NCBI GenBank assembly: GCA_023622545.1
Contig: JAMNZA010000125.1
Location: 1-35,882, forward strand
Direction of reading: 5' to 3'
Origin: Methanobacteriota archaeon
GTDB lineage: Archaea; Methanobacteriota_B; Thermococci; Methanofastidiosales; Methanofastidiosaceae
Length of the DNA stretch: 35,882 nucleotides
Shown: positions 9,477 through 34,710 of the stretch, in pieces
How positions within the stretch are numbered: the first letter of the stretch is position 1
How the letters are laid out: each line of letters begins with the position of its first letter
Translations under genes and position numbers: made by a program
The notes under the pieces: generated by a model
Seen by the model: only the letters and a program-made list of their open reading frames with translations
Database searches by the model: none
Told to the model about the DNA's origin: nothing

Positions 9477-9908
9477 ATGAAGAAGATATTTGCTGTTTTA
9501 ATATCAATGATATTTATTCTAAGTACCTTAGGAGTTGCGGCAGCAAACGGTGGGTGCAACTGTGATAGACCGAATGTTATCGCACCAAAAACAGTGACTG
9601 TTGGTCAGGAGTTTGTTTTTTTATACAAGGTGGAATGCGGAAGTAGAATTTTTACTGATTCTGGCTCACCGAACGTAAGTGAATATATCCAAAATATTTC
9701 AGTATATGGTGAGAGTGGGTATATGGCGTTCAAATTTAAAGCCTTGAAGCCTGGAACAATTTATTTCTGTGACGATCAATGCTCTGCCTGCGATCCAAGC
9801 ATCTACGAGTTCAGGTGCTATACCAATTGCTTGACCATTAATATACTCAAGAAATCGCTCCCAATTGACTGGATCATGAAGAAGTTCGGTCTTGGTAAGG
9901 AAGATTAA
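9477..9908 (+). CDS. Secreted Cys-rich Ig-like protein with the C-terminal LPM/GLGKKD tail
   Basis: 143 residues. MKK plus a hydrophobic stretch ending near AAANG is a Sec signal peptide. The mature part has eight Cys and a beta-sandwich-like pattern: VTVGQEFVF early and FKFKALKPGTIYF late, which recalls chagasin-like or other Ig-fold domains. It ends in SLPIDWIMKKFGLGKED, the tail shared with the proteins at 13467, 14026, 31579 and 34333 and, in decayed form, 30399 and 30964. No C-terminal membrane helix is present, so it is exported and either released or held by protein contacts. The function is unknown; the grouping is seen directly in the sequence. Confidence 0.8.
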   Translation: MKKIFAVLISMIFILSTLGVAAANGGCNCDRPNVIAPKTVTVGQEFVFLYKVECGSRIFTDSGSPNVSEYIQNISVYGESGYMAFKFKALKPGTIYFCDDQCSACDPSIYEFRCYTNCLTINILKKSLPIDWIMKKFGLGKED

Positions 9909-9931
9909 CTGGGAAATCAGAAATGAAGTGA

Positions 9932-10006
9932 AGCCGTTGGGGGGATTCGAACCCCCGTCGAACTAGATTACGAGTCTAGCGCATGGCCGAGCTTTGCTAC
10001 AACGGC
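9932..10006 (-). tRNA. tRNA-Thr (anticodon CGT)
   Basis: On the minus strand a full cloverleaf is visible: acceptor stem GCCGTTG/CAACGGC, anticodon stem CTAGA/TCTAG with loop CTCGTAA (anticodon CGT, codon ACG), and T arm GGGGG-TTCGAAT-CCCCC. The discriminator base is U, as in archaeal tRNA-Thr, and CCA is not encoded. No intron is seen. Confidence 0.95.
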
Positions 10007-10054
10007 ATTATAAATAGTATAAAATTAGGTCGTTTTAAAACTTTTACCGTAAAT

Positions 10055-10843
10055 CTAGATCAGTGACGGGTAAAAATATTTGCTGTTCTTCTTTTCCTTG
10101 AGCTTGTCCCAACCAGATAATATCTTTATCGATTCAAGTGTTGCTTTGGCAGCTTCTTTTTCACCCTTGACTTCAAACTCCTGAGTTTTTCTATTCCCAA
10201 AGACAGCAAGCACTGCCCCAGCCCTGAGGCCGAATAGACTTGAAAGTGTGAAGACCGTGGATGCCTCCATCTCTAGATTTAGGACCTTGGCCTTTTCAAG
10301 GTCATCGACAGTATTGTCCATGAAGGACTGGTGGTAATCCCCAAACGATGGCCTCTCCTGGCCTCCATAAAAAGTGTCCTTGCTTGCGCCTATCCCGACA
10401 TGATACCTGTATTTGAGTTTCTCACATGCCTCGATTAGGGCTAGCGTCACCTCATAAGATGCAATCGCCGGATAATATGGATTGACATAATCCTTTGTTG
10501 CGCCGTCAAATCTAACTGAGGCTGTGTTTATTATCATGTCCCCGCATTTGATTTTTTCATCAAGAGCTCCTGTGCTCCCGACCCTTATCAATGTCTTTGC
10601 GCCGACCCTTGCAAGCTCTTCGATAGCAATGGACGTGGAGGGCGCCCCGATCCCAGTTGAAGTGACACTAATACCAACACCCTTGTAAAACCCAGATATT
10701 GTGGTGTACTCCCTGTTTGATGCAATCTCCTTAACATCCTCCATGAGGCTTCCTATTAGCTGAACCCTCTTCGGATCCCCAGGAATAATAACGAAAGGGA
10801 ATATATCCCCTTCTTTGCATTTAATATGATATTGAAGTTCCAT
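10055..10843 (-). CDS. udp: Uridine phosphorylase-type nucleoside phosphorylase
   Basis: A PNP/UDP-family enzyme that splits (deoxy)nucleosides with phosphate, for pyrimidine salvage. PGDPKRV is the phosphate-binding loop, TGIGAPSTSIAIEEL and RVGSTGAL are active-site segments, and VLNLEMEASTVFTL carries the family's ribose-binding Glu-Met-Glu. The start at 10843 (MELQYHIKC) is chosen over 10867: the TATA box TTTAAATG at 10865-10874 is about 27 bases upstream, giving a leaderless mRNA, and the ATG at 10867 lies within that box. Specificity for uridine over other nucleosides is inferred. Confidence 0.87.
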   Translation of the reverse strand: MELQYHIKCKEGDIFPFVIIPGDPKRVQLIGSLMEDVKEIASNREYTTISGFYKGVGISVTSTGIGAPSTSIAIEELARVGAKTLIRVGSTGALDEKIKCGDMIINTASVRFDGATKDYVNPYYPAIASYEVTLALIEACEKLKYRYHVGIGASKDTFYGGQERPSFGDYHQSFMDNTVDDLEKAKVLNLEMEASTVFTLSSLFGLRAGAVLAVFGNRKTQEFEVKGEKEAAKATLESIKILSGWDKLKEKKNSKYFYPSLI

Positions 10844-10863
10844 GATACTTATTTTTGGGTAAA

Positions 10864-10875
10864 ACATTTAAAGAT
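10864..10875. promoter_or_regulatory. Shared TATA element of two divergent leaderless genes
   Basis: CATTTAAAGA reads as a TATA box on both strands. Its centre is about 27 bases from the phosphorylase ATG (10843, minus) and about 24 bases from the nuclease ATG (10894, plus), the spacing expected if both transcripts begin at their start codons. Confidence 0.45.
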
Positions 10876-10893
10876 TGTTACTTTTGAACGGCC

Positions 10894-12720
10894 ATGAAAG
10901 TGAGATGGCTTGGTTCGGCGGGCGAGGTCGGGAGATCTTGCGTTGAAATTAATATTGATGGAAGACTTTTCATTCTTGATTGTGGGATAAAGTTATCCGG
11001 TGAAGGAACCTACCCTGATTTTTCAGATGTGGACATATCAGCTATTGAAGCTGTGATAATTTCTCACGCACATCTAGACCACTCTGGGTACGCACCCTAT
11101 CTCTACCACATAGGCTACAACGGACCGATATACTTCACAAAACCTACATTCGAGCTTGCACTTTTGCTCCAGAAGGACTATATCAAGGTCCAGGGGCTTG
11201 AGGGTGTGACACCTCCGTTCTTTAATGAGGATATAAGGAAGGAGATCAATAGGGCTGTGACCCTGAACTACGAAGAGAAAGTTTACATAAATGACGAGGT
11301 TGCACTTACGTTCTTTAATGCCGGGCATATACTTGGTTCCGCCCAGGTCTGTCTTGATACGCCTTATGGAAGATTGGTATACACAGGTGACATAGGTTCT
11401 GATGTAAAGACCCTTGACCCGATAAAGAAGAACATACCTGGCGTAGACTATCTGATAATCGAATCGACTTACGGTATGAAAAAGGACATCCACAGACCGA
11501 TGGAAGAGAGGGAAAAAGAGTTAATTCGGGTAATCAAGGAGACCAAGAAGAAGAAGGGTAACGTCTTGATCCCGGTGTTTGCAATAGATAGGGCACAGAA
11601 CATAATGATACTTCTGAAAGAGGCCAGGGAAAGAGGGGAGATATCCCAGCCCATATTCATAGAAGGGATGCTAGTTAAGGCCAATGACATCTACAGCAAC
11701 TACCCCGACTGGATGAACAAAAAAATGTTCGACATGTTCAAGAAGGAGGATCCATTTAACCATCCAATGTTCAGAGAGGTCTGGAACAGGAAAAAGATAA
11801 TCCAGATGGCTGAGCCTATAATCGTTGTTACAACTTCAGGTATGATGTCCGGGGGACCTGTAATCGACTATTTCAATTCTTGGGCCCCAGATGAGAGGAA
11901 CACTTTAGTGCTTGTAGGGTACCAGGTTGAGGATACATTTGGCAGGCAGATCTTAGAGGGTGTGAGGGAGTTCAAGGACGAGGAAGGAAAAATGAAAAAA
12001 ATCAAAGCAAGGGTAGAGTCAATTGAGTTCTCCGCCCATGCTGACCACCCCTCAATAGTAGAGTATGTAAACGCCTTTAGAGTGCCGCCGAAAAAGGTAT
12101 TCTTGGACCACGGAGAGGGAGAAAAACTTACTGAGCTTTGCACAGAAATTTCTAAGATAACAGAGTGTGTGATAGCTGAGCCAAAGATTTCTTACCAGCT
12201 AGGCGCAGAAGAAGTTGTAAAGGAAGCAAAGGCACGCCCAGAAGTAGTTTATGAGGAAAAACTACCCCCAATTGAATGCCCATTTGAATTCATAGTGACC
12301 ACACCCCAGGACAAGTACTTCAAGGACAGGGCAGTGTCAATGATCGAAAACAGCAGAGAGGTTCTCCTTATTTCAGGTTACCTGGATGATTCCATTGTTT
12401 CATTCATCATAGACGCTGTGAAGAAAGGTGTAAAGGTCAAGGCGATATTCAGGCACATCACAAGACCGGGAAACAAGAAGGCGTTCAAGATACTAAGGAA
12501 CAATGGGGCACAGGTCAGGGTCAACAGAGACTGCCACGCGAGATTCATCATATCCGATGAGAGGGAAGCCATAATCTCATCAGGGGACCTAACACGGGAC
12601 AGCTTTTACGACCACTACGAGGCAGGGATACTAACTACCGATCAAGCCACAATAAAGAAGGCGACCGCGTTCTTCTACCAGATGTGGGACCAGAGCATCG
12701 AGGGTTACATAAAAGAATAA
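10894..12720 (+). CDS. Metallo-beta-lactamase/beta-CASP nuclease fused to a PLD-like domain
   Basis: 608 residues in two parts. Residues 1 to about 430 form a metallo-beta-lactamase fold with beta-CASP insert, as in archaeal CPSF2/RNase J-type RNA nucleases: HAHLDH (58-63), GHILGSAQ (His145), YTGDIG (Asp166), IESTYG (190-195), then SAHADH and LDHGE. There are no KH domains at the start, so it is not aCPSF1. Residues from about 465 to the end form a phospholipase D-like domain with one HxR(x)4D motif (HARFIISD, His548) followed by SSGDL, a Lys-to-Arg variant of HKD. The fusion suggests two hydrolytic or nucleic-acid-binding activities in RNA processing or decay. It is probably leaderless. Confidence 0.9.
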   Translation: MKVRWLGSAGEVGRSCVEINIDGRLFILDCGIKLSGEGTYPDFSDVDISAIEAVIISHAHLDHSGYAPYLYHIGYNGPIYFTKPTFELALLLQKDYIKVQGLEGVTPPFFNEDIRKEINRAVTLNYEEKVYINDEVALTFFNAGHILGSAQVCLDTPYGRLVYTGDIGSDVKTLDPIKKNIPGVDYLIIESTYGMKKDIHRPMEEREKELIRVIKETKKKKGNVLIPVFAIDRAQNIMILLKEARERGEISQPIFIEGMLVKANDIYSNYPDWMNKKMFDMFKKEDPFNHPMFREVWNRKKIIQMAEPIIVVTTSGMMSGGPVIDYFNSWAPDERNTLVLVGYQVEDTFGRQILEGVREFKDEEGKMKKIKARVESIEFSAHADHPSIVEYVNAFRVPPKKVFLDHGEGEKLTELCTEISKITECVIAEPKISYQLGAEEVVKEAKARPEVVYEEKLPPIECPFEFIVTTPQDKYFKDRAVSMIENSREVLLISGYLDDSIVSFIIDAVKKGVKVKAIFRHITRPGNKKAFKILRNNGAQVRVNRDCHARFIISDEREAIISSGDLTRDSFYDHYEAGILTTDQATIKKATAFFYQMWDQSIEGYIKE

Positions 12721-12746
12721 TTCTATAATATTTTATTTTATCTTTC
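12721..12746 (+). terminator. U-rich terminator of the nuclease gene
   Basis: TTTTATTTTATCTTTCC follows the stop codon directly, between two convergent genes. Confidence 0.5.
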
Positions 12747-12760
12747 CTATTCTAAATTTT

Positions 12761-12788
12761 AAATTTAAAAAAGTAATTAAAAAATAAA
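12761..12788 (-). repeat. 28-bp direct repeat, copy 1, at the 3' end of the DUF6448 gene
   Basis: This 28-base A-rich stretch (a T-rich terminator on the minus strand) is repeated exactly at 13438-13465, in both cases immediately beyond the stop codon of a minus-strand gene. Confidence 0.7.
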
Positions 12789-12789
12789 T

Positions 12790-13311
12790 TTACTCTTCAC
12801 TGCCATGGTTGCTTTCCTTTATAAATTTATAAAGATGATGCGAGTAGAGTGTAAGGCCAAGGAAAGCATGGACAAAATGTCTTCCAGCATCTACGTTGTT
12901 GACATCATACTCCTTTTTCTCCATCACTAAATCGAATTTATTTGTTATTTCTTGATTAACTGCCTCGCTTAGGAATTCAATGAGTGCTGAAGGCGATTTC
13001 ACCTTGATTGCCTCATCTACCAGAGGTATAACTGGCCCCTCGTCTAAACCGGCTGGTTTTAATCCTGTATAAGGCGCTTTTTCACCTGCCCTATGGAGCC
13101 TAACGACTGTTTCAAAGAACCAAAGATCAGCAACTTCTTTTGCTTCGCCGCCTTTCTTCCCTGCAGCTAGGGATTTTTGAAAAGCAGCAATGACCTCTCT
13201 TTCCGATTCCTTTGGCACCCATGGTAGGATATAGTTCACATTTCCTCTTTCTAGCGCCATCCTGGCAGCAACTACTACAGGCCCATCCATTGTATCACAA
13301 TGTGGTGGCAT
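12790..13311 (-). CDS. DUF6448 family protein
   Basis: A 173-residue soluble protein. It opens with MPPHCDTMDGPVV and contains FFETVVRLHRAGEKAPYTGL, blocks I recall as characteristic of the DUF6448 family, which is widespread in bacteria. There are many His, Cys, Asp and Glu in conserved positions (HCDTMDG, HRAGE, HFVHAFL), which could bind metal. No enzymatic role is established. The start has a strong SD (GGAGGGG) and a TATA box at about 13335-13347. It is isolated, with no operon partner. Confidence 0.7.
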   Translation of the reverse strand: MPPHCDTMDGPVVVAARMALERGNVNYILPWVPKESEREVIAAFQKSLAAGKKGGEAKEVADLWFFETVVRLHRAGEKAPYTGLKPAGLDEGPVIPLVDEAIKVKSPSALIEFLSEAVNQEITNKFDLVMEKKEYDVNNVDAGRHFVHAFLGLTLYSHHLYKFIKESNHGSEE

Positions 13312-13437
13312 ATATTATCCCCTCCTTAGATTTTCAATTATAAATTTCAGGATTGGTAATAATATAGTTTTTAAAATATTTATATTTATCCTTGATTCGG
13401 ATTATTGTTAGTCTGGCAATGTCTTTTCTATAAGTTG

Positions 13438-13465
13438 AAATTTAAAAAAGTAATTAAAAAATAAA
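13438..13465 (-). repeat. 28-bp direct repeat, copy 2, at the 3' end of the secreted gene
   Basis: Exact copy of 12761-12788, placed directly after the stop of the gene at 13467. On the minus strand it reads as a U-rich terminator. Confidence 0.7.
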
Positions 13466-13466
13466 A

Positions 13467-13928
13467 TTAATCCTTCTTTCCAAGTCCAAAGAACTTCATG
13501 AACTTGTCCATTGGGAGTGCTTTTGAAGATATTGTGACTGTTTCCTTGCATGTCTTTGATGTAACGAAATCTACTTTGCCGGGTTTAACTGCCTTATATG
13601 TCCAATCCCACCATATATCAGGACCACCAGGAAGTGCTGGCCAATCTTCATCATCTATTCTTGGGTCGAAATTCTCTATTATATTCCCATTCGAATCATA
13701 AATCTTGAAATTAATTTTTTCGATAAATTCTTCCTGATCTTCATCCTTAATTTGGGGTATGCAAAACGAATTAAATGAAACAGTAAATGTTTCCCCTACT
13801 TTAACTGACGTTTTGTCTATATCAAAATTAGCTGGGTCACAACAATTATACCCTCCATTTGCAGAGGCAAAACTCAAAGTGCTCGCAACAAATAACAAGC
13901 TTATCAATATTGATATTATTTTCTTCAT
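13467..13928 (-). CDS. Secreted Ig-like protein with the C-terminal LPM/GLGKKD tail
   Basis: 153 residues with signal peptide MKKIISILISLLFVASTLSF, cleaved near ASANG. The mature domain has VKVGETFTVSF and WTYKAVKPGKVDF, the same early and late strands as the protein at 9477, and four Cys. It ends in KALPMDKFMKFFGLGKKD. The N-terminus ANGGYNCCDPAN parallels ANGGCNCDRPN of the 9477 protein, so these two are true paralogs over their whole length. It shares the promoter module with its neighbour at 14026. Confidence 0.8.
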   Translation of the reverse strand: MKKIISILISLLFVASTLSFASANGGYNCCDPANFDIDKTSVKVGETFTVSFNSFCIPQIKDEDQEEFIEKINFKIYDSNGNIIENFDPRIDDEDWPALPGGPDIWWDWTYKAVKPGKVDFVTSKTCKETVTISSKALPMDKFMKFFGLGKKD

Positions 13929-13980
13929 TATTAATCACCGTTATAATTGTGAAAAATAAAATATTCAAATATTTAAACTT
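13929..13980 (-). promoter_or_regulatory. Secreted-family promoter/leader module
   Basis: Minus strand: TATA box AAGTTTAAATATTT (13980-13967), an AT-rich spacer containing ATTATAAC, then GGTGATTAATAATG. It is nearly identical to the module at 14527-14580. Confidence 0.65.
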
Positions 13981-13990
13981 ATGCTTAAAA

Positions 13991-14025
13991 TAAATTTAAA
14001 AAAAGAGTGCAAATATAAAATAAAA
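13991..14025 (-). terminator. U-rich terminator
   Basis: Minus strand T-rich run (ATTTTATTTTATATTTG, later CTTTTTTTAAATTTA) directly after the stop codon of the gene at 14026. Confidence 0.5.
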
Positions 14026-14526
14026 TTAATCCTTCTTTCCTAATCCTAGCATCTTCATGAACTGTTGCATTGGGAGTGAATTGTTTGCCGTTGGGTAATC
14101 TAGTGTTACTATATTGATGTTATTGCTACAAACATCACAATTTACATCCCAGTCTTGTTCTAATGTAACTTCTATTTTGCCATCGGCTGACCATTGAACC
14201 AATTGATTTTTAGTAACAGTATATGTTTTTGTGACAGTACTGCATCGTCCTCCAGGAAACCACTGGCCTAAAGATGTGCCTTCGACTATTACATAAATAT
14301 CTTCAGCACCTATCCAATCATAATCCCCCCTTACACTAACGGTTAAAGTACCGTCTCCACTAGGCCTTGGAGTTTGGGTGAATTCAAATACAGTGTCATA
14401 TGCATAAGACGGATTTCCCTCACACTGATTTTTTGATATTGTCTGATTGTAATTTGCACTTGCACTTGCCATGAAAACAAATGAAAGCATTAAGAATCCT
14501 ATTAATATAATCGATTTTTTCTTCAT
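14026..14526 (-). CDS. Secreted beta-sandwich protein (type 2 domain) with the LPM/GLGKKD tail
   Basis: 166 residues with signal peptide MKKKSIILIGFLMLSFVFMA, then ASASANYNQT. The domain is unlike the Ig-like group: TLTVSVRGDYD, DIYVIVEGTSLG and ADGKIEVTLEQDWDV suggest a jelly-roll type sandwich. It is a full-length paralog of the protein at 31579 (TLTVSIKGDYN, SDGQIVVTLEQGFDV). It ends in NSLPMQQFMKMLGLGKKD, the same tail as the Ig-like members. Function unknown; exported. Confidence 0.8.
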   Translation of the reverse strand: MKKKSIILIGFLMLSFVFMASASANYNQTISKNQCEGNPSYAYDTVFEFTQTPRPSGDGTLTVSVRGDYDWIGAEDIYVIVEGTSLGQWFPGGRCSTVTKTYTVTKNQLVQWSADGKIEVTLEQDWDVNCDVCSNNINIVTLDYPTANNSLPMQQFMKMLGLGKKD

Positions 14527-14580
14527 AATTAATCACCATTATAATTGTGAAAAATGAAATTATTAGATATTTAAACTTTT
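14527..14580 (-). promoter_or_regulatory. Secreted-family promoter/leader module
   Basis: Minus strand: AAAAGTTTAAATAT (14580-14567), then CAATTATAATGGTGATTAATT before the ATG, i.e. TATA box, conserved leader and SD GGTGAT. Confidence 0.65.
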
Positions 14581-14608
14581 CTAGCCTTAAGGACAGAATA
14601 GACTTCTC

Positions 14609-16048
14609 TTATCCCTTTGCAACGCCTATCGGCTTCAATTTTGCGACCTTGCCTACTAATCCCGCTTTTGCGCACACATCGACGACGTTGTGTATATCCT
14701 TGTAGACCTCGGGCGCCTCTTCAGCAACAACCTTGGGCGATGCAGCCTTCACGTAGATCTTCTCCTTCTCTAGCCTCTTTATTATGTCCTCGCCCCTAAA
14801 CTTCTTGATCGCTGCACTCCTTGATAGCACTCTGCCCGCACCGTGGCATGTGGACCCAAATGTCTCCTTGGAAGATTTTATCCCGACCATTATGTAAGAG
14901 GCTGTCCCCATGTCCCCGGGTATTATGACTGGCTGCCCAATGTCCTCATAATCCTTAGAGAGTTCCTCTCTCCCTTTCCAAAAGGCACGTGTTGCGCCCT
15001 TCCTGTGGACGCAGTATTTTTTCCCGTTGTGCTTTTCAATTTTAGCTATGTTGTGCGCGACGTCATACAGGACATCAAGACCAAGGTCCTCCTGATCCTC
15101 GCCGATGACTTTTGATACCGACTCCCTTATCCAGTGAGTTATCATCTGCCTGTTAGCCCACGCGAAGTTTGCCCCTGAGCACATCGCCTTGTAGTAGTCC
15201 TCTCCTTCTCTAGAATGGATGGGCGCACACACTAACTCCCTGTCTGGGATCTTGATGTTGTATTTCTTGTAGGCGCCATCCATCGTCTGGATGTAGTCTG
15301 AGCATATCTGGTGGCCGCACCCTCTGGAGCCTGTGTGCATCATAAAGCAAATCTGGCCTTCCTTCAATCCAAACGCCTGTGCCGTCTTCTCATCGTATAT
15401 CTCATCAATGACCTGCATCTCTAAAAAGTGGTTCCCGCTGCCAAGGCTTCCTAGCTGTGGAGCACCCCTCTTCTTTGCGTTGCTGCTGACCTTCGATGGA
15501 TCACCATCCATGCTACCCCCGCTCTCTAGGTGCTTTAGATCCTTATCCCAGCCGTACCCTTCCTCAACAGCCCATTTGGCACCGACCATCAGCACTTCAT
15601 CCAAGTCCTTTGAAGAGAGTTTAACCTTCCCTTGCGAGCCTAGCCCCGAAGGAACGTTCTTGAACATCGAGTCGATTAGCTCTACCCTCTTGTCAAAGAC
15701 GTCATCCTTTGTTAGATTGGACTTCAGAAGACGGACGCCGCAGTTAATATCGTACCCTACGCCGCCAGGCGATATGATACCGTTCTCGTAATCAATCGCT
15801 GCGACCCCACCTATAGGAAATCCATAACCCTGGTGGCCGTCAGGCATGACAAACGCATAACCCTCAATCCCAGGAAGGCACGACACATTCTCGGCCTGCT
15901 TTAGAGTAAGGTCCTCCTTCATCTTAACGATCAGCTTATCATCAGCATAAACTCTTCCAGGGACCCTCATCTCACCCTTCTTTTCAATCTCATAAATGAC
16001 TTCAGAAACCTTCTTTAGCTCGCCCATTCTCTCAATCCTTATTTCCAT
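14609..16048 (-). CDS. rtcB: RNA-splicing ligase RtcB
   Basis: RtcB joins RNA 2',3'-cyclic phosphate (or 3'-phosphate) to 5'-OH ends, using GTP and Mn2+. In archaea it seals tRNA exons after intron excision. MRVPGRVYAD, MPDGHQGYGFPIGG, GYDINCGVRLL (metal-binding Cys), GSGNHFLE, MMHTGSRGCGHQ and VHRKGATRAF (guanylylated His) are all present, about 479 residues, with no intein. The ATG at 16048 is chosen; a TTG at 16057 overlapping the rtcA stop (TTGA) would add three residues. It is cotranscribed with rtcA upstream. Confidence 0.96.
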   Translation of the reverse strand: MEIRIERMGELKKVSEVIYEIEKKGEMRVPGRVYADDKLIVKMKEDLTLKQAENVSCLPGIEGYAFVMPDGHQGYGFPIGGVAAIDYENGIISPGGVGYDINCGVRLLKSNLTKDDVFDKRVELIDSMFKNVPSGLGSQGKVKLSSKDLDEVLMVGAKWAVEEGYGWDKDLKHLESGGSMDGDPSKVSSNAKKRGAPQLGSLGSGNHFLEMQVIDEIYDEKTAQAFGLKEGQICFMMHTGSRGCGHQICSDYIQTMDGAYKKYNIKIPDRELVCAPIHSREGEDYYKAMCSGANFAWANRQMITHWIRESVSKVIGEDQEDLGLDVLYDVAHNIAKIEKHNGKKYCVHRKGATRAFWKGREELSKDYEDIGQPVIIPGDMGTASYIMVGIKSSKETFGSTCHGAGRVLSRSAAIKKFRGEDIIKRLEKEKIYVKAASPKVVAEEAPEVYKDIHNVVDVCAKAGLVGKVAKLKPIGVAKG

Positions 16049-16053
16049 AGCCT

Positions 16054-17088
16054 TCAATCTATATAAGTATTTTCAAAAGAGGCGCCGGAAACTGAGAGGT
16101 AGTCACCCTCCCATCTGAACTTTAAATCAAAGAACATTTCAAGGACAGAGATGTTCGTTTCAAGGTGCGATGTATTCCTTGTGAAGATGGAAGACTCACC
16201 ATCGGCTAGCGCCATGTAAGGGACGAGCTGGTCTGAGAGGTGAAAATCAAATCCTGCCCTATACTTTTCTAAAAATGTTTGTGCCGCTTCTTCTCCCACT
16301 TCCTCTGCACGCTTACCCCTTGCACCTAGTGCCCCATCCCCTATGATTGAGCTGCCATCACTAGAGAAGAGAAATACGCCGGAGCCTATCCGCTCACTTC
16401 CGTCCTTTTCTAGGTCTATATCTATGCTTGGCATTATGCCGCCCCTGAACAGTATCGACCTTGCTGATTTCTTTTGGCGCTCGGTGACATTCTCAGGAAG
16501 GTTTGTCGAGAACGATATGCCTTCTATTTTTTCCTGTTTTTCATATTTGTCGATCGTTATGGCTTTGAGCTTCCTTACAGGCGTTGCCTCAATTTCAATA
16601 TGGCCGTTCCCTTCCGGGTAGTAACCCCTTGAGGATTTTTTGATTTCAATCTTGTACCCCATCTTTTCGAGAGTCGGGATTGTGACATATTTCAGATAAT
16701 CAAGCTGGGGGCTCCAGGGGACGTTTGTGCCGCCGTGAACGCTTACTGTTGTTTTATTTTCCAAAAATGGTAGGAGTATCATAAGTGACTGCAATAGAAG
16801 CGTAATGCTGCCGGCTGTCCCGATGTTGATTGTTACCCTTCTCTTAAAATCGCTCTTTGGATTAAATTCAATTTCTGTAGAATGGAGCGAGTTCCCTTTT
16901 ACTTCAGAACCAGTTAGCTCTGCCATAGCGGATATCGTCTTCATGTGCTGGTGGGACAATCCCTCTTTTGGCCTGTTCTTCCTGATGTTATAGATGTGGA
17001 GCGGTTTTTGCGTCAAGACTGAAAGTGCAAGTGAGCTCCTTAATATCTGGCCCCCACCCTCGCCGAAACTACCGTCTATCTCGATCAT
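16054..17088 (-). CDS. rtcA: RNA 3'-terminal phosphate cyclase RtcA
   Basis: RtcA converts RNA 3'-phosphate ends to 2',3'-cyclic phosphates with ATP. IDGSFGEGGGQILRSSLALS is the family N-terminus, RPKEGLSHQH follows, and HLSDQLVPYMALA near the end holds the adenylylated catalytic His. The length, 344 residues, is typical. A TATA-like CTTTTATAG lies about 25 bases before the ATG, so the transcript is short-led or leaderless. The stop overlaps the first bases of the rtcB region, so the two act as one RNA-repair operon. Confidence 0.95.
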   Translation of the reverse strand: MIEIDGSFGEGGGQILRSSLALSVLTQKPLHIYNIRKNRPKEGLSHQHMKTISAMAELTGSEVKGNSLHSTEIEFNPKSDFKRRVTINIGTAGSITLLLQSLMILLPFLENKTTVSVHGGTNVPWSPQLDYLKYVTIPTLEKMGYKIEIKKSSRGYYPEGNGHIEIEATPVRKLKAITIDKYEKQEKIEGISFSTNLPENVTERQKKSARSILFRGGIMPSIDIDLEKDGSERIGSGVFLFSSDGSSIIGDGALGARGKRAEEVGEEAAQTFLEKYRAGFDFHLSDQLVPYMALADGESSIFTRNTSHLETNISVLEMFFDLKFRWEGDYLSVSGASFENTYID

Positions 17089-17120
17089 ATCATATCTTTG
17101 ATTTTACTACTATAAAAGTT

Positions 17121-17792: not shown

Positions 17793-17887
17793 TGAAGAGG
17801 AGAATAAAAGATTCTTAATATGCCTTTCGATTTTTTACGCATACTCATATTTATAAACAAAGGTAACAGTATCAGTATGGTGAAAAA

Positions 17888-18211: not shown

Positions 18212-18263
18212 GCCAATCAATTTACAAAAAGGTTTATAAACGGGGTTTTAGATTAGAGGAAAC

Positions 18264-26315: not shown

Positions 26316-26332
26316 GGATGGCTACACCATCC
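26314..26332. promoter_or_regulatory. Palindromic operator, copy 1 (ECF operon side)
   Basis: ATGGATGGCTACACCATCC, an inverted repeat GGATGG-N5-CCATCC. On the minus strand it lies just downstream of TATA-like GTTAAATAA (about 26336-26345), over the expected transcription start of the ECF operon. An identical 19-base copy lies at 26377. Confidence 0.65.
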
Positions 26333-26376
26333 TATTATTTAACATTTTCTGATTCATCGGTCCGAAAAGCATATAT

Positions 26377-26395
26377 ATGGATGGCTACACCATCC
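26377..26395. promoter_or_regulatory. Palindromic operator, copy 2 (DUF4430 side)
   Basis: Exact copy of 26314-26332; here the arms extend to ATGGATGG-N5-CCATCCAT (26377-26397). It overlaps or follows the TATA box CATATATATGG (about 26369-26379) of the plus-strand genes. A repressor binding here would block both divergent promoters. Confidence 0.65.
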
Positions 26396-26424
26396 ATACA
26401 GCAATTTTAATTGGAGGAAGATGG

Positions 26425-27381: not shown

Positions 27382-27391
27382 GGTGGGCCGC

Positions 27392-30301
27392 ATGAAAAAA
27401 ATTATTTCCATTTTTTTATTATTGGCGTTTGTACTATCCCTCTTCCCTGCATCAGCACAGGAGCTACCTAACAGGGATTTCTTCATTGATGAAGAGGGAA
27501 ATCCGAAGTGCATGATAGTGTTAAGTGAAACAGCAACTGCCAAGGATATTGAAAAGGTCACTGAGATTATCACAAGGATAACAAACGAAACGGAATACTC
27601 TACAACGGGCACAACGGAGCAGATCGTCTGGGAATCAAAAAGCTTTGTTGAGGATGATTCAGATAATGTTGCTTTAGGATATACCGGGATAAAATCAAAT
27701 CCGGACTGGGTCTGGGAGATGAGGAGCTTCACAACACCTGCCTACTTCTACTCTCACGGCGCAGATCCAGCGCCCGCATGGCCGAACTGCCCCTTCTATG
27801 TTGAGAGTGTTGAAGCGCTTTTTGACGGGGATAGGAATACAAGGATAGTCGGGAGAACTGGTTACGATTTCGGAGGGCCAAGCTATGCGCCCGTTACACT
27901 TCTAGTGAAGTTCAACGACACAAAAGAGATCTCTGATGTGAACTTCACCTTTGAAAATCTCCCAGCCTCCGGGTACCAGATATATTATCTGAACTCCTAC
28001 TGCCCGAACACCCTCTACAATCCCGCTCTCTGGATGTATGGCGCCACAGGCAACTGGACGCTACTCCCAGTTTCTGGCGGATGGCCTAGGGCGGGTAGCT
28101 CTACAAAGACAACTGACAGCTTCTCTCTGACACAGAAGGTGAAGACAAACGCGCTTCTTATAGAATTAAATCCATTTTATATGACACCGCCAAATGCGGC
28201 GATGCCTTACTCTTTGTATGAAATTGAGGTCAAAGGCAGCTCGTTCTCAGTTCTTTATGGTAATACCTATTATATGGATTTCACATGGGCGGATGAAACT
28301 GGAAAGGACAAGAATGAACTAAAGCACCTCGACTACTGGATAGAGGATGTTAAGGAAACGCTGCCAGGGGATTTCATCCAGACAAGCGGGAAAAGTTACT
28401 CTACTGATACCTCCAGATACAATCTAATCACAAAGCAGGTGAACCTCCTCAGGATGTACAGGTATAACGAGGATAACTCCTTCCCTGATAAAACGGTAGG
28501 GAGGATCTTCTACGGGACGCCAAGGACATGGGAGGACGAGGAGTTTAAGGTAAACCAGACAAAGACCTACGGCAAATACAAGGTTAAGCTCGTTGATATC
28601 AACTGGGAGAAGAGCCAGACGACTGTGAACTTTGATCATAAGGGAGGTAGCGATTATCTCGGTGAGAAGAAGGTCACAGTTGAGGTAACTGACCCAGATG
28701 GCATTGTGAAGAGGCATATAATGACTATCGACTGCTGTGATAACGCATTGGCAGAGCTATTCGTCTCTACAGATGCTGAATCAAAAGCAGCAGAAAATGC
28801 AATCTGCAGGTTGAAGAGTGAAGGATACCTTTGCGACATAACTCCAGTCATATTCCACTCAGATGCTCTTGACCCTCTCTACTTAAGCCCTGCAAGCGAC
28901 CATTTAGGTGCAGGTGCAGCAGGCATCTGGCCATCCTACGCATACATCTATGGGTACGGATACGACGCTAGTGACAGCACAAATTCTCCTACATTAATCT
29001 TCAACGGGAACAAGTCAAAAGCCATACAGGAAGTTCCTCCAAACACTGAAGATGCGTACTACGAGGCGTTCAAGGCGATGTATGAGGGAAACGTCAGCGG
29101 GTGCTGCGACGCCAAGATAGTCATCAACACCAACATGGACTCTGAAAGATTCACAACTGCAAAGGATAAGGAGGCTCTTGTCACTGTCAGGTTGGAAAAG
29201 GATCTCCCGAACACTGAGCTCTACCTAAACGTCTGGGGCATAACATGCGACTGCTGCGCACCTGTTGCTACAGGCCTTGTAACTTCACAGTACTGGCAGA
29301 ACATCAACAAGTGGTCCACAGAGTGCTCTGAAAAGGTGACAGACACCTACTGGAAGGAGCTAAAGGGCGGCGATGTCTATAGGACTGAGATCAATCTCTG
29401 CGGGACAAACTACTGCGGCGTGGTCGCATTCCTCCAGGACAAGAACACCGGGAAGATCTATGGATCAGCGATTAGGCATTTTGATCCAAAACCTGGGGCA
29501 AACCTCTCTCCTGACATCGCATCATCAGACTGCCAGTGCGTCGTTGAGTACAACAAGGATCTTGACTGCGATAACTATGAGGAAGAAGTGGAGTTCGCAA
29601 TAGAAGGTGCAGATGTAGCGTTTGTCGGGATGGAGCACGATCTAGAAAAGAACATTGACGGCGAAATAAAGAAGAACATGATCGCAAGGTTCAACATCTA
29701 TTCGCTTACAGATTACGGCTGCATTGACGACTGCGACTGCAACTACATATCAAATGACGGCTCCAAGTGGAAGCTAAAGTTCTTGATGAACGACGGCAAT
29801 GTCTATAATCCTTATGTGGATAGATGCCAAGACTGCACAAAGGACCTCCGCTCAATCAAGATAGAGCTATGCGAGCCAATCACATTCGGATGCCTAAAAG
29901 AGGGGGCAGTCTTCTGGGGGCCGGACAGGTACTTCAGGGTATACGTAGAGGACTACGACGAGGAAAAGCAGTATGTCAAGTACAAAGTGCAGAGGGTAAA
30001 TCTACTTTCAGATGAGAAGCCGATAAATACAAGTGTGGATCCAAAGGCTATGATAAAGACCGATAAAGAGATCACATCAGAAGACAGGGCAAAGTACAAC
30101 ATGATCCTGATCGGTAACAGCGAAACAAATCTAGAAATAAGGAAACTCAAAGAACAGGGCGACTACACTGAATCAGATGGCATGTCATACCTAGAGGATA
30201 TTTATGGTGAAAAGGATATACTAGTGCTGAATGCAGAAAACGTCACAGACTTAAACGAGCCCATCAGGCAGCTTACATACCTTCTCGATTTAATATTTTA
30301 A
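27392..30301 (+). CDS. Large Cys-rich S-layer-like surface protein
   Basis: 969 residues. Signal peptide MKKIISIFLLLAFVLSLFPASA. The mature N-terminus (DFFIDEEGNPKCMIVLSETA, then AKDIEKVTEIITRI) and the C-terminus (YNMILIGNSETNLEIRKLKE ... GEKDILVLNAENVTDLNEPI) look like the two split halves of a methanogen S-layer protein. Between them lies a long beta-rich, sequon-rich region with Cys clusters (DCC, GCC, CDCC, CQC, CDCDC, CQDC). No C-terminal membrane anchor is seen. ATG 27392 is chosen with SD GGGTGGG (27381-27387). It starts 11 bases after the DUF4430 gene and should share its operator. Specific function unknown; surface receptor or scaffold for the uptake system is plausible. Confidence 0.75.
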   Translation: MKKIISIFLLLAFVLSLFPASAQELPNRDFFIDEEGNPKCMIVLSETATAKDIEKVTEIITRITNETEYSTTGTTEQIVWESKSFVEDDSDNVALGYTGIKSNPDWVWEMRSFTTPAYFYSHGADPAPAWPNCPFYVESVEALFDGDRNTRIVGRTGYDFGGPSYAPVTLLVKFNDTKEISDVNFTFENLPASGYQIYYLNSYCPNTLYNPALWMYGATGNWTLLPVSGGWPRAGSSTKTTDSFSLTQKVKTNALLIELNPFYMTPPNAAMPYSLYEIEVKGSSFSVLYGNTYYMDFTWADETGKDKNELKHLDYWIEDVKETLPGDFIQTSGKSYSTDTSRYNLITKQVNLLRMYRYNEDNSFPDKTVGRIFYGTPRTWEDEEFKVNQTKTYGKYKVKLVDINWEKSQTTVNFDHKGGSDYLGEKKVTVEVTDPDGIVKRHIMTIDCCDNALAELFVSTDAESKAAENAICRLKSEGYLCDITPVIFHSDALDPLYLSPASDHLGAGAAGIWPSYAYIYGYGYDASDSTNSPTLIFNGNKSKAIQEVPPNTEDAYYEAFKAMYEGNVSGCCDAKIVINTNMDSERFTTAKDKEALVTVRLEKDLPNTELYLNVWGITCDCCAPVATGLVTSQYWQNINKWSTECSEKVTDTYWKELKGGDVYRTEINLCGTNYCGVVAFLQDKNTGKIYGSAIRHFDPKPGANLSPDIASSDCQCVVEYNKDLDCDNYEEEVEFAIEGADVAFVGMEHDLEKNIDGEIKKNMIARFNIYSLTDYGCIDDCDCNYISNDGSKWKLKFLMNDGNVYNPYVDRCQDCTKDLRSIKIELCEPITFGCLKEGAVFWGPDRYFRVYVEDYDEEKQYVKYKVQRVNLLSDEKPINTSVDPKAMIKTDKEITSEDRAKYNMILIGNSETNLEIRKLKEQGDYTESDGMSYLEDIYGEKDILVLNAENVTDLNEPIRQLTYLLDLIF

Positions 30302-30335
30302 TTTTTAATTTCTTTTCTAATCTTTTCTTATATTT
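30302..30335 (+). terminator. U-rich terminator
   Basis: TTTTTAATTTCTTTTCTAAT and a further TCTTTTCTT follow the stop codon of the S-layer-like gene. Confidence 0.5.
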
Positions 30336-30347
30336 CAAGTCAGGCAT

Positions 30348-30398
30348 AAGTTTAAATATTATTATATTTTATTTTTAGCATCATAACGGTGATTTATT
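30348..30398 (+). promoter_or_regulatory. Secreted-family promoter/leader module
   Basis: TATA box AAGTTTAAATATT (30348-30360), spacer ATTTTATTTTTAG, CATAACGGTGATTTATT before the ATG. The preceding TTATATTTCAAGTCAGGC is repeated before the next gene (30892-30908). Confidence 0.65.
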
Positions 30399-30866
30399 AT
30401 GAAAAAGATATTTGCTATTTTGGTAAGCTTGTTATTTGCAGTTGCGACTTTAAGTTCTGTGAGTGGATTTTGTGAAGCTCCCGATAATGTCTGTCATGGG
30501 TATTGTTTAACGTGTATTATATCACCCTGCTCTTCAAGTACAAGCTATTGTAATATTTATGGGCCAAGTTTAGTTCATGTAGGTGACATCATTACTGTAG
30601 AAATACATGGCGTTGGTTGTAATCTACAAAACAGTGGATTTATTTTCTGCGATAATTTTGAAGTTATATCTTTTGATCTTGAGTTAACAGGTATCTCTGA
30701 AAGCGGATGCAGTGCAATTGCAGTCTATAAACTTAAGGCATTGAGTCCTGGTGCGGTGGGTGCAACTTTTGAGTGCAATGAGAACAAACTTAATATTACC
30801 ATAACCCCAAAGGAATACCCGATGCAACAGTTCATGAAGATACTTGAAAAGAACAAAAACAAGTAA
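30399..30866 (+). CDS. Secreted Cys-rich Ig-like protein with partly decayed tail
   Basis: 155 residues with signal peptide MKKIFAILVSLLFAVATLSS. About eleven Cys are in the mature part. VHVGDIITVEIHG and YKLKALSPGAVGATFE match the early and late strands of the proteins at 9477 and 13467. The tail reads EYPMQQFMKILEKNKNK: the PMQQFMK half is kept, the GLGKKD half is replaced by a basic end. It is adjacent to and upstream of a further member at 30964, with a duplicated upstream region. Confidence 0.78.
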   Translation: MKKIFAILVSLLFAVATLSSVSGFCEAPDNVCHGYCLTCIISPCSSSTSYCNIYGPSLVHVGDIITVEIHGVGCNLQNSGFIFCDNFEVISFDLELTGISESGCSAIAVYKLKALSPGAVGATFECNENKLNITITPKEYPMQQFMKILEKNKNK

Positions 30867-30895
30867 TTATTTTTTATTTCAACTTTTTTCTTATA
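30867..30895 (+). terminator. U-rich terminator
   Basis: TTATTTTTTATTTC followed by CTTTTTTCTT immediately after the stop codon. Confidence 0.5.
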
Positions 30896-30910
30896 TTTCA
30901 AGTTAGGCGA

Positions 30911-30963
30911 AAGTTTAAATATATATCAAGATTTATTTTTAGATAATTATGGTTGTGTTCACA
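30911..30963 (+). promoter_or_regulatory. Secreted-family promoter/leader module, variant
   Basis: AAGTTTAAATATAT (30911-30924), ATTTATTTTTAG, then GGTTGTG as a diverged SD before ATG 30964. The SD replaces GGTGATT of the other members. Confidence 0.55.
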
Positions 30964-31479
30964 ATGAATAAAATAATATCAATATTGTTATCCTTGTTTT
31001 TTATAACAAGTATTTTTGGTGTTGCTCAAACGACGGCTGAAGAAATTTCACTATGTGATTATTGCTATGGATCTGGACCTAACAATATTACAGTCCAAGT
31101 TGGGGATACATTGGTAGTAGATCCAGGGATTTTAGGTATCATTGAGTGGGATCCTCATTATGAGCCTAAAATTTTTCCTGCAGAAGAGATAGCCCCAGGT
31201 AAGTCTCGCCAGGTCATAGACTATGGATTTTTCATCTATGAAATGATAGTAGATCCATCAAACCCGGGCTTTCCCATCCAAGAAAAAATCAAGGTCCTCG
31301 GCCCTGGAACAATAAATTTCGCTTTTGTTTGTATCGAACTTCCCTCCTCTATTTGTATCAGAACAGATTTCACTGTTACAATAGTACCAAAGCCGCTTCC
31401 AATGGATCAGATAACAAATATACTCGAAAAGAACAGATGCAAGAATCACCCTGATGCCGAAGGATGCGAAGTTAATTAA
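30964..31479 (+). CDS. Secreted Ig-like protein with divergent, extended tail
   Basis: 171 residues from ATG 30964 (MNKIISILLSLFFITSIFGV, a signal peptide). The ATG at 30949 would put five residues before the signal and lies on the SD region, so it is not used. The mature part has VQVGDTLVVDPG and VLGPGTINFAFV, the Ig-like pattern. The tail begins PLPMDQITNILEKN as in the family, then continues into a Cys-containing end (RCKNHPDAEGCEVN) instead of GLGKKD. This is the most diverged member. Confidence 0.75.
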   Translation: MNKIISILLSLFFITSIFGVAQTTAEEISLCDYCYGSGPNNITVQVGDTLVVDPGILGIIEWDPHYEPKIFPAEEIAPGKSRQVIDYGFFIYEMIVDPSNPGFPIQEKIKVLGPGTINFAFVCIELPSSICIRTDFTVTIVPKPLPMDQITNILEKNRCKNHPDAEGCEVN

Positions 31480-31520
31480 TTTTATTTTTTATTCTCTTAT
31501 TTTCTATTAATTTATTTTCT
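31480..31520 (+). terminator. U-rich terminator
   Basis: TTTTATTTTTTATTCTCTTA and TTTATTTTCTT after the stop codon. Confidence 0.5.
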
Positions 31521-31526
31521 TAGCAA

Positions 31527-31578
31527 ATGTTTAAATATCTAAAATTATTATTCTTAACAATTATAATGGTGATTTATT
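31527..31578 (+). promoter_or_regulatory. Secreted-family promoter/leader module
   Basis: TATA box ATGTTTAAATATCT (31527-31540), then ACAATTATAATGGTGATTT to the ATG. The leader is nearly identical to that of its paralog at 14026, on the opposite strand 17 kb away. Confidence 0.65.
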
Positions 31579-32151
31579 ATGAAGAAACATGCAATAATAT
31601 TGATTGGAGTTCTTCTGATTTCATTTATCTTCATGGCAAGTGCAAGTGCAGCCTACAAACAGACGATAGTTAAGGAGCTTGAGTGTGAGGATGAGGAATA
31701 CGAAGAAGAGGCATATGATACAGAATTCATTTTTACAAACGTTCCTGCAACAGGGCCATATACTTTGACTGTCAGCATAAAAGGAGACTACAACGGATAT
31801 AATGCTGGTGAATATGTAGAGATTTTTATTGAAGGAACTTCATTCGGTGTGTTTCCAGAAGGGTATAATGGGGACTGGCAATGTTCCTGTGAATTCCTTA
31901 CAAAAACTGTTACCTTGACACAAGCACAGGTAAGTCAATGGATGTCCGATGGCCAAATCGTAGTCACTTTAGAACAGGGTTTTGATGTAGACTGTTTCTG
32001 TGGAGAAGATAGTTGGGATGATATGTGTAAGTGTGGTGACACTTCTAAATGTACTAATACAAACATGGTCACATTAGAATCTTCTGGTGCAAGTAATTCA
32101 CTTCCAATGGACTGGATAATGAAGAAGTTCGGACTTGGCAACAAAGATTAA
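31579..32151 (+). CDS. Secreted beta-sandwich protein (type 2 domain) with the LPM/GLG tail
   Basis: 190 residues with signal peptide MKKHAIILIGVLLISFIFMA. It is a full-length paralog of the protein at 14026: AYDTEFIFTNVPATGPYTLT, GDYNGYNAGEYVEIFIEGTS, SDGQIVVTLEQGFDV. It differs by an acidic insert (EDEEYEEEAYD) and extra Cys (CFCGED, CKCGD). The tail is NSLPMDWIMKKFGLGNKD, closest to that of the Ig-like protein at 9477. This pairing of one tail with two folds shows the tail is a separate module. Confidence 0.8.
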   Translation: MKKHAIILIGVLLISFIFMASASAAYKQTIVKELECEDEEYEEEAYDTEFIFTNVPATGPYTLTVSIKGDYNGYNAGEYVEIFIEGTSFGVFPEGYNGDWQCSCEFLTKTVTLTQAQVSQWMSDGQIVVTLEQGFDVDCFCGEDSWDDMCKCGDTSKCTNTNMVTLESSGASNSLPMDWIMKKFGLGNKD

Positions 32152-32185
32152 TTTTATTTTTAATTTCTTTTCTTTAATTTTTCAA
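32152..32185 (+). terminator. U-rich terminator
   Basis: TTTTATTTTTAATTTCTTTT after the stop codon, followed by more T-rich sequence. Confidence 0.5.
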
Positions 32186-32223
32186 ACAAAAAGAATATAT
32201 ATTGACACTTTAAATTTATAGAT

Positions 32224-32826
32224 ATGTTTGAAAAAAGGGCCATCCCGCAGGCAAACTTCACAAACGCGGACATCCTAATCGCTCTAAAGATTATCGAGAA
32301 TGAGGAGAGCATCGGGCGGAAGCTCCTTTCAAAGAGGATGTTCCTAAACGAGGCTAGCATCAGATCAATTCTAACAAAACTAAAAGATTCAGACTACATT
32401 AGCTCCTCAAGGCTTGGCCACAACGTCACAAGGAAAGGGAGGGATTTCATAGACAGATCAATCCAGTTCGAGGCGCCTTCTGAAATAAATGCTAAGGAGC
32501 TCACTTTGAACAGCAAGAACTTCGGCACCCTGATAAAAGGGGCGTCGTCTAAGATAAATGACGGTATGGACCAGAGGGATAACGCGGTCTTTGGCGGGGC
32601 CAGGTCTGCTATCACCTTGATTTTTAGAGACGGCCATTTTTCCCTGCCTGAAATAAAACCTGAAATCAAAATCCCGACGATAAAACTAAATCTCAGCAAA
32701 GCTCTAGAAACAGAGCTCCACGAGAAGTTCAGCCCCAAGAACAACGATGTCGTCATAATAGCAAGTGCAGAGGATGATGAGCGAGCTTTCAGGGGCATCG
32801 TCCACGTTATAGATTCTTTTATTTGA
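32224..32826 (+). CDS. Winged-helix DUF4443 family regulator
   Basis: 200 residues. The N-terminal part (about 15-80: ADILIALKIIENEESIGRKL, RSILTKLKDSDYISSSRLGH, NVTRKGRDFI) is a winged helix-turn-helix. The C-terminal part (about 90-200, with KINDGMDQRDNA and VVIIASAEDDERAFRGIVHV) matches the archaeal DUF4443 ligand-binding-like region, as I recall that family. TATA-like AATATATATTG (32191-32201) lies about 28 bases before the ATG, so a leaderless mRNA is likely. It may regulate the adjacent flavoprotein gene or the secreted genes; no site can be assigned. Confidence 0.75.
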   Translation: MFEKRAIPQANFTNADILIALKIIENEESIGRKLLSKRMFLNEASIRSILTKLKDSDYISSSRLGHNVTRKGRDFIDRSIQFEAPSEINAKELTLNSKNFGTLIKGASSKINDGMDQRDNAVFGGARSAITLIFRDGHFSLPEIKPEIKIPTIKLNLSKALETELHEKFSPKNNDVVIIASAEDDERAFRGIVHVIDSFI

Positions 32827-32889
32827 TAGCAATTAGTTTTATATTTCAAATTTTGGATATATTTTCATATTCAACACGGTGTGACTTTT

Positions 32890-34272
32890 ATGAGAAAGAG
32901 ATTAGTTGTCATAGGTGCAGGCCCAGCAGGGCTGCCAGTTGCGTCCCAAGTGAGGAAGGAGACCGACCAGTTTGATATCGATGTGATAACGGACAGGCAA
33001 TACTTTTCTTATAGCCCTTGCGGCATCCCGTTTGTGATATCCGGTATGATAAAATCATTTGACAATCTGATAATGAGGGGCAAGAAGCACTATGAGGATA
33101 TGGACATATTTGTTCACACAAACACTCTTGCAGAGTCAATAGACACCGATAAACAGATAGTTAACACAAATAGGGGCAGCTTCCCATATGACGTATTAGT
33201 TATTGCCACCGGTGTGAAGCCATTTGTCCCGCCAATAAGAGGGGTAGACCTCAAAGGCGTTTACTTCATGTATTCCCTTGAAGAAGCGATTGAACTTGAG
33301 AGGGGGTTAAAGGATTCAAATACAGTCACCATAGTGGGCGCAGGGGCGATAGGTCTAGAGATGGCATATGCTTTTCGTAAAAGACACAAAGATGTTATTG
33401 TAATAGAAAGAAGCCCGCATATTATGGGCTCAATACTGGATCCTGATATGTCATCGATAGTTGAAGACTACCTTCTATCAAGCGGGATCACGATAATCAA
33501 GGACACTGAGGTTACGGCCTTTGAGAGCGAGAATGGAAAGGTATCGGCCGTCATAACAAGCAAGGGAAAGATAAAAACTGATATGGTGCTCATGTCAATT
33601 GGTGTAAGGCCTAATGTTGAGTTAGCAGCTGAAGCCGGGATAGAAAGAGGCGTTACAGGTGGCCTTGTCACCGATTCATCACTTAGGGTCAGGAAGAACG
33701 GGAGGTTCATGTCCAATATATACGCATGCGGTAACTGCATAGAAGTGATAGGTGGCGTCACGTTTAGACCAACTTTAAGCGGCCTTGGCTCAACTGCTGT
33801 AAGACAAGCCCTCACCGTTGCCGAAAATATTCTAGGGACCAATACTGTGTTTAATCCCATAGTAAGCCCTGGTGTATCCATAATAGGGGATCTGGAGATT
33901 GGGGCTGTTGGTGTTAACTCAAAAAGGGCTATAGAAAATGGGATAATACCAAAGGAATCGATTGCAAAAGGGTTGACCCGTGCTCGCTACTTCCCGAAGG
34001 GCGAGATAATCACAGTCAAGATCCTAGTCGATAAAAACTATAGGCTGATAGGATCCCAGATAATCTCCAAGGAAGGTGTTAAGGGGAGAATCGATTCATT
34101 GTCATTTATGATATCAAGGGGTGTCACGGCCCACCAGCTCGCACTGATAGAAACATCTTATGTTCCTCCGGTGTCAAGTGTTATAGACCCAATAACAATT
34201 GCGGCCCGTAAGCTGATAGGTATCACAAGGGATAAGTTCACAATGCCAGAATCAATGGACAACTCGACCTGA
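32890..34272 (+). CDS. CoA-disulfide reductase/NADH oxidase-family flavoprotein
   Basis: 460 residues of the FAD-dependent pyridine nucleotide-disulfide oxidoreductase family. The FAD Rossmann motif is VIGAGPAGLPVA (7-18), the redox-active single Cys is in YSPCGIPFVISG (Cys44), the NAD(P)H motif is TIVGAGAIGLEMA, and the second FAD motif ends in YACGNCIEV. The single-Cys signature is that of CoA-disulfide/persulfide reductases and NADH oxidases, not of glutathione reductase. There is no rhodanese domain at the C-terminus. ATG 32890 with SD GGTGTGA is preferred over GTG 32881. Confidence 0.88.
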   Translation: MRKRLVVIGAGPAGLPVASQVRKETDQFDIDVITDRQYFSYSPCGIPFVISGMIKSFDNLIMRGKKHYEDMDIFVHTNTLAESIDTDKQIVNTNRGSFPYDVLVIATGVKPFVPPIRGVDLKGVYFMYSLEEAIELERGLKDSNTVTIVGAGAIGLEMAYAFRKRHKDVIVIERSPHIMGSILDPDMSSIVEDYLLSSGITIIKDTEVTAFESENGKVSAVITSKGKIKTDMVLMSIGVRPNVELAAEAGIERGVTGGLVTDSSLRVRKNGRFMSNIYACGNCIEVIGGVTFRPTLSGLGSTAVRQALTVAENILGTNTVFNPIVSPGVSIIGDLEIGAVGVNSKRAIENGIIPKESIAKGLTRARYFPKGEIITVKILVDKNYRLIGSQIISKEGVKGRIDSLSFMISRGVTAHQLALIETSYVPPVSSVIDPITIAARKLIGITRDKFTMPESMDNST

Positions 34273-34280
34273 TTAAGCAA

Positions 34281-34332
34281 ATCTTTAAATATCATATTAT
34301 TTTATTTTTAACAACTATAAAGGCGAGTTACT
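34281..34332 (+). promoter_or_regulatory. Secreted-family promoter/leader module
   Basis: ATCTTTAAATATC (34281-34293), ATTTTATTTTTAACAACTAT, then GGCGAGTTACT before the ATG. Confidence 0.6.
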
Positions 34333-34710
34333 ATGAAGAAGATATTTGCTATATTGATAGGATTGTTGTTTCTGGTGAGTACTTTTGCTATAGCTTCTGT
34401 TATGGCGCCACCACCACCGGGACTCCAAGCAACTTACATTAGTCCAAACAAGATGTACTATTCGATTGGTGAAAACGTTGTTGTAACAAGTGATGGAGAG
34501 TATGATGCCTTGGAAACCCCAAACGGTGTATTGTCATATATAGTCAGCGAATGGGATGACCCAAAATTAACTATGACATGGAAAGCCGAGAAGCCAGGTA
34601 CTGTAAAATTCTATAACGAGAATACCTCTGTTATCATCAAGGTTGCAATAGCCAGGCCAACGCCGATGCAACAGTTCATGAAGTTATTAGGATTCGGGAA
34701 GAAAGATTAA
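34333..34710 (+). CDS. Short secreted Ig-like protein with the PM/GFGKKD tail
   Basis: 125 residues, the smallest family member and free of Cys. Signal peptide MKKIFAILIGLLFLVSTFAI. The mature part begins with a Pro-rich stretch (APPPPGLQ), then YSIGENVVVTSDGEY and MTWKAEKPGTVKFYNE, the minimal Ig-like core of the group. The tail is TPMQQFMKLLGFGKKD. Because it lacks Cys, the fold does not need disulfides, and those of other members must be accessory. Confidence 0.8.
   Translation: MKKIFAILIGLLFLVSTFAIASVMAPPPPGLQATYISPNKMYYSIGENVVVTSDGEYDALETPNGVLSYIVSEWDDPKLTMTWKAEKPGTVKFYNENTSVIIKVAIARPTPMQQFMKLLGFGKKD

Follow-up and report, generated by a model that had tools for sequence, protein, structure and literature searches.

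Seven genes in a 35,882-nucleotide stretch of DNA assigned to Candidatus Methanofastidiosum, a genus of uncultured methane-making archaea (contig JAMNZA010000125.1 of assembly GCA_023622545.1; this whole stretch is called the window) encode predicted exported proteins that share a short C-terminal tail. The same tail was found in every genome of the genus examined, on proteins whose domains are unrelated to each other. It is very likely that the tail is a functional tag, separable from the domains that carry it. The more specific reading, that it is a C-terminal address tag docking to a protein receptor at the cell envelope, stands at about even chances.

The tail was characterized from 89 examples, and all residue counts given here refer to these. 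It is a module of about 14–17 residues with the consensus [KN]-[SE]-[LYH]-P-[MI]-x-x-[FI]-[ML]-K-[I]-[LF]-[GKE]-x-[GN]-[KQN]. The proline was present in 89 of 89 tails, and offsets are counted from it. Position +1 was Met or Ile in 83 tails, +4 was Phe or Ile in 86, +5 was Met or Leu in 80, and +8 was Leu or Phe in 84; Lys at +6 and Ile at +7 were found in 68 tails each, and Gly or Asn at +11 in 82. The residues ahead of the proline were mostly K-S-L. Taken over 17 columns, the information content came to about 40 bits. Two sub-types could be distinguished, one ending G-x-G-K (G-type) and the other ending K/E-x-N-[QK] (N-type). In 80 of the 89 tails the distance from the proline to the C-terminal end was 13–17 residues, while the other nine had extensions, some of them recurrent. 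The extension NRCKNHPDAEGCEVN that follows the tail of the window gene at 30964 recurs in two other stretches (L091 and L123), the Cys-pair extension RCKNHPDAEGCEVN (window 31438–31476; L091, L123) is found in three species, and looser Cys-pair extensions, FCKDNPSAEGC and NCIEDPEAEGC, occur on some tails (L130, L101).

The distribution of the tail was examined by pattern and by profile. In the window's own genome, which is 68% complete, a degenerate DNA pattern derived from the tail matched at 7 places, 2 of them on other contigs, against 0 for the reversed control, which gave 0 across 61 genomes as well. A looser pattern gave 16 places, with 1 for its control. An exact pattern, which covers G-type tails with a TAA stop only, was scanned over 84,980 species. 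Ten stretches matched, and nine of these were Candidatus Methanofastidiosum records. The tenth (L050) was a 4.3-kb contig filed under the metagenome-assembled genome of Firmicutes bacterium ADurb.Bin080. It encodes tail proteins of the same family as the window gene at 14026, together with a MazF-like protein that is apparently identical (ends and length were compared) to one on a Methanofastidiosum contig. Hence, this contig is likelier to be misbinned Methanofastidiosum DNA, and a spread of the tail to bacteria was rejected. Viral contigs gave no match to the exact pattern.

A profile of 34 tails found matches in all 10 Methanofastidiosum genomes, and only six weak matches (E 0.026 or worse) in 11 genomes of the same order outside the genus. 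When a 17-column profile was built from 60 distinct tails and applied at E ≤ 1e-3, about 102 places were found, spread over all 10 Methanofastidiosum genomes at several to about two dozen per genome, while 105 genomes from the rest of the phylum had none. The window tails scored between E 6.6e-8 and 9.8e-6, calculated for one genome. Pfam and NCBIfam held no model for the tail, for the immunoglobulin (Ig)-like group or for the 14026 family; searches of open-licence literature gave no paper describing this tail, and we know of no experiment on it. A preliminary description of the window had listed the seven genes as the family and had taken the tails of two of them, at 30399 and 30964, for halves. 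All seven genes are present where they had been placed, with the tails as written there. The family is larger, however, with 12 places in the window's own genome and 23 in the richest relative by the 17-column profile, and the two 'half' tails belong to the N-type, a second and complete sub-type, which other species have at full length (YPMHQFLKILEKNKNK, SLPIAQILKILKENQEN).

The proteins that carry the tail differ widely in their domains. Besides Ig-like proteins and an unnamed beta-sandwich, carriers include several beta-propeller types (TIGR04275, PQQ/BamB and FG-GAP), right-handed beta-helices, a LamG_3 plus DUF2341 protein, a nidogen-like protein and a subtilase. AlphaFold models of two window proteins of different fold each showed a beta domain that comes to an end, followed by a separate short helix (residues 129–136 in the 9477 protein and 153–159 in the 14026 protein) that begins at or beside the invariant proline. 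By Foldseek, the 9477 domain falls among filamin-type Ig domains, and the 14026 domain is a beta-sandwich with weak matches only. For 36 Ig proteins, mean identity was 53% in the tail and 53% in the signal peptide, but 24% in the domain. It may be noted that the Ig proteins (window 9477, 13467, 30399, 30964 and 34333; L092–L147) have constant ends around a middle that changes fast, as is seen in variable surface proteins. Another C-terminal motif, D[ND]NxxxG[GD], is known from the VARTIG proteins of Thermococcales (PMC8416519). Like the Methanofastidiosum tail, it is short and sits on Ig-domain surface proteins of what we infer to be the same archaeal class. Its sequence is different, it often follows a hydrophobic stretch and it is not found on other Thermococcales proteins, whereas the tail is carried by many types of domain.

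A signal-peptide-like start was observed in 74 of the 89 tail genes, compared with 40 of the 486 other genes that these stretches contain (they were chosen around tails, so that the contrast is valid within them). Most of the remaining 15 tail genes look cut, frameshifted or wrongly started. No hydrophobic stretch of 19 residues was present in the last 55 residues of any of the 74 exported-like tail proteins, and only about 15 residues follow the proline. Most carriers have no other visible anchor. A possible lipobox was seen in three tail proteins, all of one family, and a mutual exclusion of lipobox and tail (3/74 against 5/40) was too weak to be used. The preliminary description had proposed a tag without a membrane helix, differing from LPXTG and PGF-CTERM signals. 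The lack of a membrane helix is confirmed by these counts, and the difference from both signals, which lies in the missing transmembrane segment, holds. The tag idea itself survived on the two points on which that description had staked it, as the tail occurs beyond the seven genes and is not a strand of one fold.

The signals of the PGF-CTERM/archaeosortase, LPXTG/sortase, GlyGly-CTERM/rhombosortase and MYXO-CTERM/myxosortase systems combine a motif with a membrane helix and a basic cluster (PMC11980579). The tail resembles them in being a short motif at the extreme C-terminal end of Sec-exported proteins with unrelated domains, with a set in each genome across a clade. Unlike them, it has no membrane helix. 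Moreover, no sortase (PF04203) was detected in 21 genomes, with positive controls, and sortase was rejected as the partner. An archaeosortase-family protein was found as a single orthologue in each of the 10 Methanofastidiosum genomes (TIGR04178, 33.1 bits against a cut-off of 23); its Cys, Arg and His are present, it belongs to no named subclass, and elsewhere in the phylum only remote matches of 21–30% identity were obtained. The tail might therefore be an atypical signal for this enzyme, which would cut at or near the S/K-L-P-M motif and attach the protein to lipid. Apart from the distribution of the enzyme, it speaks for such processing that no shared canonical signal was found: the sole candidate examined for a signal common to several carriers, an end with Pro, a transmembrane segment and RRR, is confined to one orthologous FG-GAP family and was rejected. 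However, a genus-wide distribution is common to many genes, and no linkage of the archaeosortase to tail genes was seen in the stretches read. Since the known signals have a membrane helix and the tail has none, archaeosortase processing is kept as a rival explanation, and we regard it as quite unlikely. At the archaeosortase locus (L215–L220, L235–L242), a glycosyltransferase-like gene, the archaeosortase gene on the other strand, and a minD-like gene are followed by a gene for a DUF11 protein of about 1,650 residues (full length in L239). This giant protein was rejected as an obvious target of the enzyme, its C-terminal part being long and hydrophilic, with no sorting signal. A 295-residue S_layer_C protein is encoded about 4.5 kb from the locus, on the opposite side from the DUF11 protein.

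The hydrophobic residues at +1, +4, +5 and +8 share one side of a helix, and Gly and Asn, as found at the end of the tail, are usual helix caps. The tail is predicted to be a short, capped amphipathic helix that begins with Pro, closes with Gly or Asn and hangs off the carrier. Its hydrophobic moment averaged 0.46, compared to 0.32 at other C-terminal ends; its net charge averaged +1.7 (range −1 to +4), with many tails ending KD, KE or NQE. In the mechanism that we propose, the carrier would be exported via Sec and its signal peptide removed, while the tail helix would stay on the mature protein. The hydrophobic stripe would then dock non-covalently into a groove of an envelope receptor specific to the genus; this docking would retain proteins that have no other visible anchor.

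The same helix might instead lie in the plane of the membrane, as an amphipathic and mostly positive anchor on the outer face of the cytoplasmic membrane that needs no protein receptor. The hydrophobic moment and the mean charge are in keeping with such an anchor. In the genus, an FG-GAP protein terminates either with the tail or with a membrane helix plus RRRKR, which fits, without proving, a shared job of the two ends. But the helix has just about 8–11 residues, its charge varies from −1 to +4, and the tail is limited to one genus. Furthermore, the invariant proline, the restriction of +4 to Phe and Ile, and the Gly/Asn cap exceed the needs of amphipathicity. Such conservation of specific residues favours a protein receptor over lipid, and a membrane anchor appears rather unlikely.

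Docking to a protein receptor has a parallel in the encapsulation peptides of bacterial microcompartments. These are amphipathic helices of 15–20 residues, and mutants and docking have been used to argue that they bind a hydrophobic groove between the tessellating tiles of the shell (PMC11157265). In both cases a short amphipathic end helix, predicted for the tail, with one conserved hydrophobic face is carried by many unrelated proteins, outside the folded domain. The encapsulation peptides, however, belong to cytosolic enzymes and attach to shell proteins, while the Methanofastidiosum carriers are Sec-exported, so that the likeness is one of form and not of membership. By this analogy, one plausible candidate for the receptor of the tail is the S-layer, as a tessellating lattice. 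We give somewhat less than even chances to the tails representing a new class, namely a non-covalent extracellular address system in which a capped helix without a transmembrane segment docks unrelated proteins, possibly between S-layer tiles.

The preliminary description had suggested the S-layer as a possible partner. S_layer_C (PF05124) proteins are present in 10 of 11 same-order genomes that have no tail. Consequently, the S-layer was rejected as a sufficient partner, and the receptor, which may still be an S-layer with a feature of its own in this genus, would need a genus-specific element. All S-layer-type proteins that were read are themselves without the tail. At window 34789–35727, and also in L128, L138, L141 and L236, a second C-terminal module was observed, in the form of a domain about 125 residues long that ends ..VVP. 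Its carriers, exported proteins and lipoproteins, differ greatly in length; each Methanofastidiosum genome has 1–11 matches, and the rest of the phylum only one, which is weak. The 34789 family was rejected as the partner: it is genus-specific, but its copy number is weakly correlated with the number of tails (rho 0.56, p 0.09) and a functional link is lacking.

Several points weigh against an address tag that docks to a receptor. No receptor was found among the candidates examined. Confidence in the AlphaFold models was moderate over the tail (block means about 53–73), and the alignments were shallow. Tails from one genome resembled each other no more closely than tails from different genomes did, so that there is no sign of co-evolution with a species-specific receptor. 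One genome (G004; L103, L104, L105 and L107) has four G-type tails ending GGLMR(E), a form absent from the other nine genomes, with two more such variants possible on contigs C74 and C117; as an exception to the lack of greater likeness within genomes, the four were too few to weigh. The tails of unrelated carriers shared codons at 0.49, against 0.38 predicted from codon usage. This modest excess means that some kinship at the DNA level remains and that part of the likeness of the tails may be due to common descent by shuffling. Taken further, the tail would be a relic without a function of its own, spread by duplication and recombination along with genes for exported proteins, and the clustering of many tail genes agrees with such a history. 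Nevertheless, where residues are shared, their codons disagree in about half of the cases, the tail is kept on unrelated folds in every species of the genus, and the Ig set retains its tails while its domains diverge, as noted above. That the tail is no more than such a relic is highly improbable.

It also weighs against retention by docking that the tail could be cleaved off, which the sequence cannot tell. Removal on release may also form part of a further explanation, in which a transport device or chaperone reads the tail and carries the proteins through the envelope. The C-terminal position is suited to such a secretion signal, as are the exported carriers, mostly devoid of another anchor. 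The carriers, however, already have Sec-type signal peptides, and no candidate secretion machine came to light, though no search aimed at one was made. We consider a secretion signal very unlikely. In Type IX secretion, C-terminal domains on many exported proteins are folded, have about 60–100 residues and are read by a dedicated partner. They and the tail are both separable C-terminal modules on exported proteins, but the tail is, by prediction, one short helix.

Within the window, five tail genes encode Ig-like proteins. That of 143 residues (9477–9908, forward strand) has the tail SLPIDWIMKKFGLGKED at 9855–9905, separate in the model from the Ig-like strands. The 153-residue protein (13467–13928, reverse strand) ends in ALPMDKFMKFFGLGKKD (13470–13520), and the 125-residue protein (34333–34710, forward) in TPMQQFMKLLGFGKKD (34660–34707). 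Two forward-strand genes have N-type tails, the 155-residue protein (30399–30866) with YPMQQFMKILEKNKNK at 30816–30863, and the 171-residue protein (30964–31479, alternative start 30949) with LPMDQITNILEKN, which together with its Cys-pair extension spans 31396–31476. The other two are paralogous beta-sandwich proteins, one of 166 residues (14026–14526, reverse) with SLPMQQFMKMLGLGKKD at 14029–14079, and one of 190 residues (31579–32151, forward) with SLPMDWIMKKFGLGNKD at 32098–32148. Directly upstream of three tail genes lies a gene for an S-layer-like protein (27383–30301; PF05124 at the cut-off), whose end, EPIRQLTYLLDLIF, is loosely tail-like (P-I-x-x-L-x-x-L-L).

To our knowledge, the known C-terminal tags on exported prokaryotic proteins either include a membrane helix that serves a processing enzyme or consist of a whole folded domain. 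If the docking of the tail to an envelope receptor is true, a tag of about 15 residues that lacks a membrane helix and is kept throughout a genus of methanogens, on propellers, beta-helices, lectin-like and Ig domains and a protease, would be another way of holding proteins at the cell surface. The tail offers a simple annotation rule for many hypothetical surface proteins of Methanofastidiosum, and, as a short portable peptide, it could be used to seek the receptor by pull-down.

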